Assembly: GCA_030668025.1 (NCBI GenBank) | Contig: DAOUUT010000066.1 | Span: 1 to 14,211, forward strand | Direction: 5' to 3' | Length of the DNA stretch: 14,211 nucleotides | Source of the DNA: Promethearchaeota archaeon | GTDB lineage: Archaea; Asgardarchaeota; Lokiarchaeia; Sigynarchaeales; SOKP01 | In this document: positions 926 through 5,516 of the stretch, one piece after another | Position numbering within the stretch: position 1 is the stretch's first letter | How the letters are laid out: each line of letters opens with the position of its first letter | The notes under the pieces: model-generated | What the model was told of the DNA's origin: nothing | Database searches by the model: none | The model's input: only the letters and a program-made list of their open reading frames with translations | Position numbers and translations under genes: made by a program

Positions 926-2068
926 ATGTCTGAAACTTATAAGAAATTTATGATCTTCGGTCTAGAAAGTACCGGAGAAAAAGTAAGGTTAGATATTTCT
1001 GAAGATACCTTTCGGTTGAATAACGGTCAAAATGTATTAGATCCTAACCAAGTGTTAATAATTATCAAGGAAGGGCTAAGGAGGATCTACATCTGGAAAG
1101 GTCTCAATTCACATGTCAGGAAAAAATTTATAGCAGCCCAGGTTGCCGCTGAATTACAAAACGATTTGGTTGTTGAAGCGCGTTTTCATAGGTGCAAAAT
1201 TATCTCAGTAGACCAAGGAGACGAACCTAACGAATTCTTAAGAGCATTTGATTTTTCGACAGCTGAATTACCAGAACTTATTGATCGTAATTCACCAGAG
1301 TTCAAGCAAATTCATTCTACATCTACAAGAACGGCGTCAGAATTAGATGGAAAGAAAGTTCACAGTTGGAAGGGAACTACTCCTTCTTTAAAAGGAAAAA
1401 AAGGCTCTCCAGCAATTACTCAAACTATGACGGAAAGAGCAAAAGAGGAACCTAAAAAGACAATTAAATCCTTTAACACTGACGAAAAGGAAATAATAGA
1501 GAAAATAGTAAAAAATAATGTTCCAGCCGGTCTAAAAAGACAAAACCTAATCTTAGGTAATTTTCAGATTTTTGGTGCAACGATTAAAAAAGCAAAAATA
1601 TTTGGCAAAGAAGTAGAAGAAGTCAAATGGGAACCAGTGAACTCGCTACCAGAAGGAATAATTGAACTAACTGATCGCACTCTTAGAATTTATATCGATG
1701 ATACCTCTAAGACTATTGAAGGAATAGAAGTTCTCCAGAAACTCGAATCACCTAAGATTGTAGAACCTGTGGTTGAAAAGGATGAACAAATAGACTACAA
1801 TACTTGGACTGTTAAACAACTAAAAGTTTATTGTCAAGAAAACAATATAAAAGTGCCTATATCTTACAAAAAAGCACAAATTATAAATCTCATTAAAAAG
1901 AAGCCCTCCCAAGAATCTATTGAACCAGAATCAATTGAACCAGAATTAAATTATAAAACTTGGACAGTAAAGCAACTGAAAGAATACTGTAAAAAAAACG
2001 ATATCAAAGTGCTTTCTAAATACAGAAAAGCAGATTTACTTAAACTTGTGAAAGAACATCAAAAATAG
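926..2068 (+). CDS. Gelsolin-like domain protein with two C-terminal SAP-like repeats
   Basis: A 380-residue protein. Residues about 27-108 match the gelsolin/ADF-H type repeat: an NVLDPNQVLIII strand, the hallmark IYIWKGLNS turn (Trp57, Gly59), a helix with KKFIAAQVAAEL, and the closing VDQGDEPNEFLRAF segment with its conserved G-D/E-P-x-x-F. Family knowledge: gelsolin repeats bind, sever or cap actin, and Asgard archaea encode actins and short gelsolins. Residues about 110-185 are a charged, probably disordered linker. Residues 186-272 form an unrecognised globular segment. Residues 291-326 and 343-379 are near-identical SAP/LEM-like helix-extension-helix repeats beginning Y-x-TWTVKQLK, a fold usually linked to nucleic-acid binding. 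An SIEPE duplication joins the repeats. The ATG lies 26 nt after a TATA box. The gene converges with the TPR regulator. The gelsolin call is strong. SAP-like is moderate, and actin or DNA binding is inferred. Confidence 0.85.
   Translation: MSETYKKFMIFGLESTGEKVRLDISEDTFRLNNGQNVLDPNQVLIIIKEGLRRIYIWKGLNSHVRKKFIAAQVAAELQNDLVVEARFHRCKIISVDQGDEPNEFLRAFDFSTAELPELIDRNSPEFKQIHSTSTRTASELDGKKVHSWKGTTPSLKGKKGSPAITQTMTERAKEEPKKTIKSFNTDEKEIIEKIVKNNVPAGLKRQNLILGNFQIFGATIKKAKIFGKEVEEVKWEPVNSLPEGIIELTDRTLRIYIDDTSKTIEGIEVLQKLESPKIVEPVVEKDEQIDYNTWTVKQLKVYCQENNIKVPISYKKAQIINLIKKKPSQESIEPESIEPELNYKTWTVKQLKEYCKKNDIKVLSKYRKADLLKLVKEHQK
1796..2062 (+). repeat. Two in-frame SAP-like protein repeats
   Basis: Repeat 1 (1796-1903) and repeat 2 (1952-2062) encode aligned segments of about 36 residues sharing TWTVKQLK, a Y-C pair and a Y-K/R-KA motif before an amphipathic helix. 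They also resemble each other at the DNA level, which indicates an internal duplication followed by drift. The linker carries a shorter SIEPE repeat. Confidence 0.75.
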
Positions 2069-2107: not shown

Positions 2108-5074
2108 TTAATCCTGAGAAGCGTAGAAATCGTCGAAATTCTCTTGTAATTGATCTATGTATAGCTTTCTCTTTCCAGGTATAACTTTTTCTGTAAGCAT
2201 TTTTGCTTTCTCGTAGCAGGTGGCTGCTTCTACGCGCATTTCTAAGTGTTTATAGGACTGGGCTAATTTTAGAAAAGTGTGAAATGCGAACCAACCTCTT
2301 GGGTTGGCTTCCAAAGCTTGTGTAAATTTCTCGATAGCACCTTTATAATTTTTTGAGTTCATCAATACTTCTCCGTATGTGTCATACATGTTTGCATCGA
2401 GAGGATCGATTTCGATGGCTTTTTTAATTGTTTCAATCGCTTCATCGTATCTTCCGATAGTGCTCAATGAAATGGATCTATTGTTTAATAACCCTGGTGA
2501 ATCCGGATAAAGGTCTAAGGCTTCGTCAATAGTCTTGATCACTTCTAAATATTTACCCATCGTATAATATGTAAAGCTTTTCAATTGATAAAGCGACTTA
2601 CGCTCCTGTGGAAATTTTTTCATCATCTCATCGATTAGGGCCATTAAATCGCTTCTCATTTTATCATTCGTGAGATATAAGTGAATTTTTGTGTTATAGA
2701 TATCGAAGTGATCAGGGCTTAATTCAATTGCTTTTTCAATTTCAACTAAAGCCTCTGCAGTCCCGTTTGTCTCATTTAAAATATAACTATACAGTTGATA
2801 ATACCTGGACAACTGTTTTTCACTCGGCTCCATTGATATTGCCTTCTCAAATTCCTCAATATAGAGCTCTTTGTTTAATTTACTCGCGTCAAAATTGTAT
2901 ACAATGTTAAATCCGTGAACTATTCCAGTAATAATATGAGAAAGTGGGTGGTTTGGGTAATGAAATTTTATTTTGTTGACGATGTCTAAGGCTTTATCGA
3001 ATTTTCCTCGAGATAAATACGAGAAGGAAAGTATCAAATACGCTGCCGTATCAACACGGGGATTATGCTTGAGTAAATTGAATTCAACAACATGTTTAAT
3101 CCAATCTTTTCCCTCTTTGTAATTATTTGTAACCGTGTATAATAGAGCTTTCATTACTGAGAGTTCCAAGTCCTTAGGATTTGCTTCAATTAATGAATTA
3201 ATAAGTTCCAAAGGTTCGTCAATTGATATTACACAGCACTTTTTATCTGTTAGGTTACACAGGAATTTAGTTCGTTGGAGCAAAAAATTATCAGGATATT
3301 CAGCTAATGCGTCTTCAACAACGCTTAAAGCTTTATCGTGATCTTGATTTACTAGTATTTGTGCTTTTTGAGTAATAAGCGACACATCATAAGTCCTGCT
3401 TAACCCTAATTCGATGGTTTCTAACGCTGAATTGTGATTACCCATAAAGAAATAGGTTATTGATTGAAACAAATAACCAATATATTCGTTAGGGTGTTTT
3501 ATGATGATTTCTTCAGTTAACTCGAGCGAATCCTCTAATTCTCCATTGTATGTGTAAAATAAATCTTTCAGAAGCAATAACTCGATATCACTTAAATTCT
3601 TTAGATTCTCTGTAAGTAAGTCGTTTACTTTGGATAGTTTCCCTCTTGCGAATTTACGTTCAATTTTCGTCAAAAATTCCGAATTCTTAGGAAAGTATGT
3701 CTTTTTGAACTGAGATGTTCTAATAAAGTTAATTTTAGTCAAATAGAATATGTCCAAGGTATCAAAAATTCTGTTGTGTAAGAAATAATACGCTTCGCTA
3801 TCGGCTGGTTTGTTCATCGTGCTCGCCGTATCAGAGGTATCAAAACTTTGAATTACCTCGAAAACATTTTGAAAGGCGATCCCTTTTATTTTATCTGTGT
3901 GGTCGATCAAATTCTTCTCGCTCTCAAATTTATACGCCAAATGCTCGATATACTCAGGAAGGAATTTTTTTAAAGCCGGTTTCAAATCGTCGTGGAATAA
4001 ATTACTACACATTTCGCTAGTTATATCTTCAAGCAACTCGTTGATATCGGGTATGTGATATTGAACTCCACTCGCTTTCTGGAATTTACTCAAATACGTA
4101 AATCTCCTAATGTAGTCCTCTATAATTACATTGAGCATTTTTTCTAACCGCTCTTCTGCCTGAATGTAGTAGGTGTATTTGTTGCCTATATTTAATTTAA
4201 AGAAGCGTATCGGATAGATGTTATCTTCAACGATCTTCTCAATGAAGAAGTTCAGAGTTGTTAGCTTTATATCGTATTCTACAGCAAAATCTTTAGCCGT
4301 GATGTAGTTAGGGTATTGATCCGGGTGATTAATAGCAAGATAAAGTAAAATTTTATCAAAATCCACCTCGTCGGACAGAGTACTTTCAACTTTAGTATAA
4401 TCCAACCTAAGTACCATGTTCAAAAATCTGTATTTTATCCCGTCGCCCTCGATATCGTAATCCTTAAAAAATCCTGCTACTTTATCTGTTATAACCTCAA
4501 CTCTCTTGCTCTCTTCGTCTAATATTGATTGGCGATCTAAATCATATTTTTTTAACATATTGAAGTATTCTAATTCCCCTGAATTAGTAATCTTATACTC
4601 ACGGTTATCTTTATTAATAAATCCAGATTCTAGTAATAAATTCAAATTCTTTGACAATGAAGATTGATTAATTTTGAGAGGTTCCTCAAGGAAATCTGAC
4701 CATTTACAATGGTGGTTATTATATAACATCCAAAGAATCCAATCATCGTATTTTCTCTGATTTGTTATAGTCTCAGGTGGATAATTCAATGTTTTTTCTA
4801 GCGCATCTTTAGCTTGAAGATCGGCATACTGCTTTCGACCTTCAGGAGTAATATTATACTTACCCTTCATTTGCTTCTCAATAAAACCATTATTAATTAA
4901 GATGGCAAGATATTTCGACAAAGTTGCTTGACTTATATTTACAGGATCTGCTTTAAAATCAGACCATGAACAATGGTTATTATTATAGAGCATCCAGAGG
5001 ATAATATGCTCAAAATCTTTGTTGATTTTCATGGGTGTAATTATACCTTCAGGTGGAAATTTTGGTACACTCAT
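2108..5074 (-). CDS. Large winged-helix/TPR regulator-like protein
   Basis: 988 residues from the ATG at 5074. A longer frame from 5155 exists, but it would run through the TATA box and palindrome. The 5074 ATG lies 25 nt from a strong TATA box, so it is preferred as a leaderless start. Residues about 18-86 and 109-176 are two duplicated winged-helix domains (shared LWMLYNN, WSDF, LSK and Y-x-ITxxG wing motifs). A third winged-helix-like segment lies at about 239-305. Residues about 310-480 are an unassigned, mostly helical region. From about 495 to 965 there are roughly ten TPR-type helix pairs, the clearest being YGEVLMNSKNYKGAIEKF followed by NP near residue 920. Inference: a cytoplasmic DNA-binding regulator that senses or recruits partners through TPRs, possibly self-regulating through the adjacent palindrome. 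The ligand and targets are unknown. It converges with the gelsolin-like gene. Confidence 0.85.
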   Translation of the reverse strand: MSVPKFPPEGIITPMKINKDFEHIILWMLYNNNHCSWSDFKADPVNISQATLSKYLAILINNGFIEKQMKGKYNITPEGRKQYADLQAKDALEKTLNYPPETITNQRKYDDWILWMLYNNHHCKWSDFLEEPLKINQSSLSKNLNLLLESGFINKDNREYKITNSGELEYFNMLKKYDLDRQSILDEESKRVEVITDKVAGFFKDYDIEGDGIKYRFLNMVLRLDYTKVESTLSDEVDFDKILLYLAINHPDQYPNYITAKDFAVEYDIKLTTLNFFIEKIVEDNIYPIRFFKLNIGNKYTYYIQAEERLEKMLNVIIEDYIRRFTYLSKFQKASGVQYHIPDINELLEDITSEMCSNLFHDDLKPALKKFLPEYIEHLAYKFESEKNLIDHTDKIKGIAFQNVFEVIQSFDTSDTASTMNKPADSEAYYFLHNRIFDTLDIFYLTKINFIRTSQFKKTYFPKNSEFLTKIERKFARGKLSKVNDLLTENLKNLSDIELLLLKDLFYTYNGELEDSLELTEEIIIKHPNEYIGYLFQSITYFFMGNHNSALETIELGLSRTYDVSLITQKAQILVNQDHDKALSVVEDALAEYPDNFLLQRTKFLCNLTDKKCCVISIDEPLELINSLIEANPKDLELSVMKALLYTVTNNYKEGKDWIKHVVEFNLLKHNPRVDTAAYLILSFSYLSRGKFDKALDIVNKIKFHYPNHPLSHIITGIVHGFNIVYNFDASKLNKELYIEEFEKAISMEPSEKQLSRYYQLYSYILNETNGTAEALVEIEKAIELSPDHFDIYNTKIHLYLTNDKMRSDLMALIDEMMKKFPQERKSLYQLKSFTYYTMGKYLEVIKTIDEALDLYPDSPGLLNNRSISLSTIGRYDEAIETIKKAIEIDPLDANMYDTYGEVLMNSKNYKGAIEKFTQALEANPRGWFAFHTFLKLAQSYKHLEMRVEAATCYEKAKMLTEKVIPGKRKLYIDQLQENFDDFYASQD

Positions 5075-5094
5075 GATTATATAATGGTTTTGTA

Positions 5095-5104
5095 CATATA
5101 TAAG
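5095..5104 (-). promoter_or_regulatory. TATA box of the winged-helix/TPR gene
   Basis: On the minus strand it reads CTTATATATG, with its centre 25 nt from the ATG at 5074. This near-ideal archaeal spacing decides the start codon and implies a leaderless message. An A-run (AAAAAACC) directly upstream could serve as the BRE. Confidence 0.65.
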
Positions 5105-5119
5105 GTTTTTTATTCGCAT

Positions 5120-5145
5120 CGAACTTCGAAGTTCGTTCGAACTTC
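5120..5145. promoter_or_regulatory. Palindromic operator-like site between divergent promoters
   Basis: 5120-5135 is a perfect 16-bp palindrome, CGAACTTCGAAGTTCG. It overlaps by one base an 8-bp palindrome, GTTCGAAC, at 5135-5142. The octamer CGAACTTC occurs at 5120-5127 and again at 5138-5145, 18 bp apart, so two dimer sites could sit on nearly the same DNA face. The block lies between the TATA boxes of the two divergent genes, 15 bp from one and 11 bp from the other. It is G+C-rich compared with its surroundings. Control of both genes by one factor is inferred. Confidence 0.65.
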
Positions 5146-5156
5146 CTAAAGTCAAA

Positions 5157-5237: not shown

Positions 5238-5516
5238 ATGGCACAAGCAATAGTAAAAAAAACCATGTCCAAGGAATATGACCTCCAAGCTTTAGCCCTG
5301 AACTTAGCACTTGAGGTGCGGGAGCCTCAAGTGCTGGTTCTAATAAATGAAGAAGCGAAGGATAAATCAAGTTTACTAAAGAACAAGCTTTTGAGAGTGT
5401 TCGATGAAATTAAATATAACGCGAGGATTTCGGAAGAGAATGTCGTTATAAACAGGTATAAGGGGCAAGTAGACACAAAGCTTCTTGGAGCTCGCATTTC
5501 CATGTTAAATATATAA
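5238..5516 (+). CDS. Small protein, possibly Alba-fold
   Basis: 92 residues. The predicted order of secondary structure is strand (AIVKK), helix (YDLQALALNLALE), strand (PQVLVLIN), long helix (DKSSLLKNKLLRVFDEI), then two strands (NVVINRY, GARISMLNI). This order and the length match Alba/IF3-C-like archaeal nucleic-acid-binding proteins, which coat DNA or RNA. However, the usual Alba loop motif around the second strand (RGxAIxKA) is replaced by INEEAKDKSS, and the protein is only mildly basic. I therefore treat Alba as a structural guess rather than an identification. The strong TATA box, A-rich 50-nt leader and T-rich end suggest a well-expressed single-gene transcript. The gene diverges from the winged-helix/TPR gene and shares the palindromic region with it. 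Residues 24-33 are encoded within a perfect DNA hairpin (listed separately). Confidence 0.7.
   Translation: MAQAIVKKTMSKEYDLQALALNLALEVREPQVLVLINEEAKDKSSLLKNKLLRVFDEIKYNARISEENVVINRYKGQVDTKLLGARISMLNI
5306..5335 (+). repeat. Perfect 11-bp inverted repeat inside the small gene
   Basis: Arms AGCACTTGAGG (5306-5316) and CCTCAAGTGCT (5325-5335) are exact reverse complements around an 8-nt loop, TGCGGGAG. The hairpin is far richer in G+C than the surrounding DNA and lies 68 nt after the start codon. It could fold in the mRNA or in DNA, or mark an inserted palindrome that kept the frame open. Confidence 0.8.

Follow-up and report, generated by a model that had tools for sequence, protein, structure and literature searches.

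Asgard archaea encode gelsolin-type proteins of several kinds. For a cultured Lokiarchaeon, a passage of PMC9834061 reports a cytoskeleton of Lokiactin and puts the number of gelsolin-like proteins at eight. The 2DGels (7c2g/h, 7whf and 7whg) contain two gelsolin domains with calcium sites, as stated in a section of PMC9433394, and ProGel (7c2f) is a lone domain; the title of entry 7c2f names a complex of ProGel with rabbit actin. A third kind, 1DGelX, which by its name has one gelsolin domain and an X region, is uncharacterised; the passage of PMC9433394 that mentions it assigns two such proteins to MK-D1 and three to GC14_75.

The window, that is, the whole stretch of 14,211 nucleotides analysed here, contains an ATG-initiated gene (926..2068, + strand) encoding a 380-aa protein that consists of a gelsolin-type domain, a linker, a domain that we call M, and two SAP repeats, as delineated from the open reading frame, Pfam and relatives. 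Like ProGel and the 2DGels, this protein has a gelsolin-type domain that is detectable by sequence; unlike the lone domain of ProGel, its single gelsolin domain is followed by M and the SAP repeats. The gelsolin and M domains together (the core) are probably the 1DGelX of PMC9433394, with which we compare them by name only, whereas SAP, HhH, H1-like and LPKIPS ends are unmentioned in that passage. Our searches of the open-licence literature found no report of a gelsolin with a SAP domain in Asgard or other archaea, of an Asgard gelsolin fused to a DNA-binding domain in connection with actin, or of an Asgard gelsolin in connection with chromatin and histone H1.

In the following sections, we describe the domains of the protein and then its relatives. 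The best single reading of the window protein, unproved and in our judgement somewhat short of an even chance, is that it is a calcium-insensitive adaptor between the cytoskeleton and DNA, and more specifically between actin and DNA.

The window gene and the family sample

The window gene is conserved at 80-85% identity across residues 1-380 in three named Lokiarchaeal MAGs. In its closest relative, an in-frame TAA occurs close to the gene start (L001, 10001-10127), representing either a MAG error or a broken gene. The gene adjoins a convergent neighbour (2108..5155, - strand) in all three named relatives; according to Pfam, this 1015-aa protein carries two N-terminal winged helices (HTH_45) and a TPR array, and it matches an Sso10a-family chromatin model at 46.6 bits, below the cut-off of 60. 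A 92-aa ORF without a family match (5238-5516, + strand) is also found beside the gene in all three, conserved at 56-64%. No Rfam family or tRNA was found within the window, and scans for viral sequences found no viral relatives of the window protein.

At least part of the protein is matched in 207 of the 227 genomes in the phylum of one Lokiarchaeal relative, a figure that is not an orthologue count since some matches cover the whole protein and others no more than one domain. All six of the related genomes searched contain actin-family genes. For the domain scan, the frame that matched best was taken at each of 100 loci except L011, which gave none; after duplicates (L001-L003) and an interrupted copy (L004) were left out and the window protein was included, this yielded 96 proteins. 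Note that 60 of the loci were hand-picked from among the matches listed, so that fractions of the 96 are not phylum frequencies, and that L013, which is among them, does not belong to the gelsolins.

Gelsolin-type domain, linker and M domain

The gelsolin-type domain covers residues 4-115 (935..1270, + strand) and is supported by Pfam, the family HMM and PDB profile matches. The preliminary description had recognised a gelsolin-type segment by the signatures IYIWKG and QGDEPNEF; these lie at residues 54-59 and 97-104, and the assignment is confirmed by a PF00626 match at residues 38-105 (E 1.8e-6, 28.1 bits against a cut-off of 21). This is the only gelsolin stretch that Pfam finds in the protein, and the second gelsolin domain that defines a 2DGel is absent. 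When a 37-row profile of the family domain was compared with the PDB, all 31 sequences at E<=0.01 were gelsolin, villin, adseverin, CapG or Asgard gelsolins, including Thor ProGel (7c2f) and the Loki, Heim and Thor 2DGels, with top E-values of 2e-14 for villin and 4.5e-14 for 7c2f. The nearest matches in a single-sequence search likewise include Thor 2DGel3, ProGel (7c2f) and Loki 2DGel. In addition, the stretch FKKLMGTRVA of ProGel aligns with a conserved RKKFI..RVA stretch of the family.

The acidic pair of the first domain of Loki2DGel (DE in SVDEK) aligns with R65-K66 of the window protein, and 91 of the 96 rows have K or R at position 66; the acidic residue of the calcium-regulated 2DGel type, which we take to be the calcium ligand on the long helix (Glu97 in human gelsolin), is replaced. 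Inspection of the window linker by eye found no LKKT-like WH2 motif. Because of these two observations, the classical gelsolin mode is unlikely. ProGel has FKK at the same position and likewise lacks the acidic pair. We infer a ProGel-like, calcium-insensitive mode for the window domain, for which actin binding is plausible from its likeness to Asgard ProGel and 2DGel.

The same replacement can also be read as a sign that the domain has lost actin and docks some other conserved partner, so that the protein would be a DNA-binding protein of the nucleoid that makes use of a cytoskeletal fold and is placed on DNA by its SAP repeats or, in relatives, by HhH or H1-like tails. Gelsolin folds do have non-actin roles in Sec23/24, and among nine gelsolin-bearing relatives, the Pfam gelsolin cut-off is passed by L078 only; scores of 15-20 bits were obtained for seven others, and for L035 no match was listed. 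However, the nearest solved relatives include Asgard gelsolins bound to actin, and ProGel was solved with actin despite lacking the acidic pair; we regard the loss of actin binding as unlikely.

The linker (residues 116-187; 1271..1486, + strand) is poorly conserved in the alignment and probably disordered; its pLDDT is low (under 50), which is uninformative by itself. A short motif, WxGPPP, is conserved amid this variable sequence in L005, L006, L014, L016, L018, L022 and L019-L021, and its place is taken by WKGTTP in the window protein and by WTGSPP in L015.

The M domain (residues 188-277; 1487..1756, + strand) was delimited by a family HMM, the alignment and a low-confidence model, and is predicted to consist of a short helix followed by a beta-rich part. 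The preliminary description had listed an unassigned domain after the linker, and it proves to be real: in an alignment of 41 rows, R20 is invariant and P15, R69 and E83 are nearly so (fragment numbering). Two copies occur in 5 of the 96 proteins. A model of M alone, built from 4 rows, has a helix and seven strands at low confidence (mean pLDDT 42.7).

Two possible identities of M were dropped. M is not a second gelsolin domain, the hhalign probability between the M and gelsolin profiles being 0.3%. Nor was M assigned to a known family, since comparison with Pfam and the PDB gave nothing convincing (best E 0.39 in one search); matches to Chromo_SEND1 are weak (best 0.028) and restricted to 3 of the 41 members.

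Tandem SAP repeats and other hosts of the same subtype

The two repeats cover residues 290-325 (1793..1900, + strand; net charge +7) and residues 342-378 (1949..2059, + strand; net charge +8). Both are identified by Pfam, a SAP HMM and the structure model, and the second also by structural matches. Pfam finds two stretches each of Ish1 (1e-12, 48.6 bits against a cut-off of 26.6), SAP (4.2e-9, 36.2 against 23.9), HeH/LEM (1.4e-8) and Rho_N (1.6e-7), all above cut-off. The repeats are identical at 20 of 36 residues, and their alignment score of 118 was reached by none of 1000 shuffles (maximum 53), in agreement with the duplicated TWTVKQLK-type repeats reported earlier. In a model of the full-length protein (3 rows), which is confident in the SAP repeats only and has most residues at pLDDT under 50, both repeats adopt the helix-extension-helix fold that structure prediction of residues 285-380 had been expected to check. 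They thus resemble SAP/Ish1/HeH modules such as the SAP domains of Ku70 and MKL1, from which they differ in standing in tandem, in being fused to an actin-regulator domain, and in that their binding is predicted only. When the sequence of the SAP region was compared directly with the PDB, no match fell below E 0.1.

Nucleic-acid binding, more precisely DNA binding, is the likely role predicted for these repeats, and the other hosts of the subtype bear on this. For this search, the SAP HMM was built from 39 seeds, whereas a single SAP seed was used in the scan of the 96 proteins. At nine loci in related genomes, it also matches topoisomerase VI-B, the neighbour of SMC, and GIFT-like proteins. 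The topoisomerase VI-B hosts, L139 and L146, come from 2 genomes and have the SAP in a C-terminal extension; L146 scores 324 bits against the NCBIfam cut-off of 274, and L139 has a Topo-VIb transducer (99 bits). In 4 genomes, the gene directly downstream of SMC begins with the same SAP subtype (L011 640-1677, L105 1459-2469, L143 2-640, L147 495-1568), SMC being identified by Pfam at one of the four (L140, the same place as L011) and the neighbour having nearly the same sequence in the other three. The third kind of host comprises IFT52/GIFT-like proteins with a C-terminal SAP (L013 and L141); L144 also has a SAP. The sharing of the subtype with topoisomerase VI-B and the post-SMC gene favours DNA binding. 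As to what the SMC-adjacent protein is, a kleisin/ScpA-like partner is our guess: one of two fragments tested matches ScpA at 17.4 bits, below the cut-off of 24.6, and two full frames gave SAP-type matches only, with no ScpA.

Some proteins use SAP and Rho_N-type modules to bind RNA, and the Rho_N match in the window protein is above cut-off. If the repeats were of this kind, the protein would couple actin to transcripts or ribosomes. Against this, the hosts of the subtype identified at the nine loci include no RNA enzyme, and we consider such an RNA tether very unlikely.

Alternatively, the repeats may bind proteins, in the manner of LEM or CDNF, making the window protein a cytoskeletal scaffold that does not touch nucleic acid. 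SAP-fold domains can bind proteins, CDNF/MANF being among the best structural matches of the modelled repeats, and the third host of the subtype is GIFT-like rather than a DNA enzyme, both of which count against the actin-to-DNA adaptor. So does the distribution of charge: the mean net charge per SAP is +0.6, or near neutral, in tail-bearing relatives (11 repeats). In the two-SAP clade that includes the window protein, however, the repeats are basic (+4.8; 22 repeats), and in single-SAP proteins without a tail the mean is +3.9 (18 repeats). Moreover, other members of the family have an H1-like or HhH-like end in place of SAPs, as described below. Protein-binding SAPs appear quite improbable, if a little less so than the RNA tether, and we retain the adaptor between actin and DNA as the preferred reading.

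Exchange of the C-terminus across the family

A gelsolin domain followed by M is found in 90 of the 96 proteins and forms the common core, on which we have seen the following C-terminal ends: two SAPs, one SAP, HhH-like, H1-like Pro/Lys repeats, a second M, and an LPKIPS tail. One or two SAPs occur in 40 of the 96 and an LPx[IV]P end in 30. In a quick tree of the gelsolin and M parts (88 rows, since 8 of the 96 had a domain that was incomplete or absent), the C-terminal ends, sorted into nine classes, require 12 changes, SAP presence 6 and the tail 3; these counts do not separate gain from loss, and the 'basic' class among them was set at a net charge >=14, a threshold of our own. This repeated exchange of the C-terminus is a new observation. 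Three proteins (L070, L099 and L078) have the same gelsolin domain with other unassigned regions replacing M, and L070 and L099 share one such region by eye.

The preliminary description had suggested a search of Asgard proteomes for the same architecture; in the tree, the two-SAP form makes up one clade of 11 (SH-aLRT 99). L041, with an HhH-like end whose Pfam HhH match of 23.4 bits is below the cut-off of 27, is placed among the single-SAP proteins. Ends of the H1-like type, rich in Pro, Lys and Ala and with repeated PAPKKK or PTAKRR, adjoin SAP-bearing rows in two places: L054, L063 and L065 beside L062, and L053 and L057 beside eight SAP rows. The supports for the HhH-like and H1-like joins are moderate (82-94, without bootstrap), and L041, L050 and L075 have long branches.

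A paralogue with the core and an LPx[IV]P end is present in 10 of the 11 genomes that have a two-SAP protein (one of these paralogues is cut at its start) and was not found in the remaining one, G002. The tails of these paralogues (L007, L008, L044, L047 and L129-L134) mostly read RRELPKIPS. Their LPKIPSxDD-type tails resemble MPEIPSDD-type stretches of Loki ESCRT-III (L117-L121), and the pattern M-P-[EK]-[IV]-P-[SAD]-D-[DE] occurs in 5 of 10 ESCRT-III loci from G001, G003, G115, G125 and G128, although such a short motif match may be due to chance and the window protein has no tail. Proline-rich motifs resembling MIM2 are noted for Asgard Vps20/32/60 in a passage of PMC7240154, and a passage of PMC12993045 reports chromatin binding for Asgard ESCRT-III/Vps4; the word 'gelsolin' does not occur in the text of PMC11188069. 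We hypothesise that the tail links the paralogues to Vps4, which concerns these relatives and not the window protein.

As a general tag, the LPKIPS tail was rejected. A narrow pattern gave 5 matches in 3 genomes. Two of them are tails of the present family, and three are not C-terminal tails: one is in the interior of a frame of 617 residues, another in a frame of 23 residues, and the last has no LPx[IV]P frame. The pattern missed the known L007 tail in G003, so that these numbers are no proof of rarity.

A possible actin-to-DNA adaptor

In the preferred reading, the gelsolin-type domain of the window protein would bind actin, as monomer or at the side or end of the filament, in a calcium-insensitive manner like that of ProGel or cofilin. 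M would serve as a conserved structural module or as a dimerising or regulatory one, the flexible linker would extend the reach of the protein, and both SAP repeats, which are basic, would bind chromosomal DNA bivalently. By binding actin and DNA at once, the protein could keep actin or actin regulators at the nucleoid. The tether from actin to the chromosome or RNA that had been proposed at the outset is partly supported: the domain calls are right, and the domain order, homology, conservation, C-terminal exchange and SAP charge are seen in the sequences themselves; the tethering is unproved.

The same reasoning can be extended, more tentatively, to the family. Asgard archaea may possess a family of adaptors built on the gelsolin-type core, in which interchangeable C-terminal ends direct the actin cytoskeleton to different parts of the cell: tandem SAP, HhH or H1-like ends to the chromosome, and the ESCRT-III-like LPKIPS tail to Vps4/ESCRT. 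We rate this as rather doubtful.

With an actin-regulator domain and DNA-binding-like modules in one chain, the protein provides a specific case in which a connection of the cytoskeleton to the chromosome can be tested in the closest lineage to eukaryotes. That the DNA-binding-like end has been exchanged repeatedly suggests that this is not just one unusual fusion. If the reading is true, the adaptor family would be an actin-chromosome linker that predates the nucleus.
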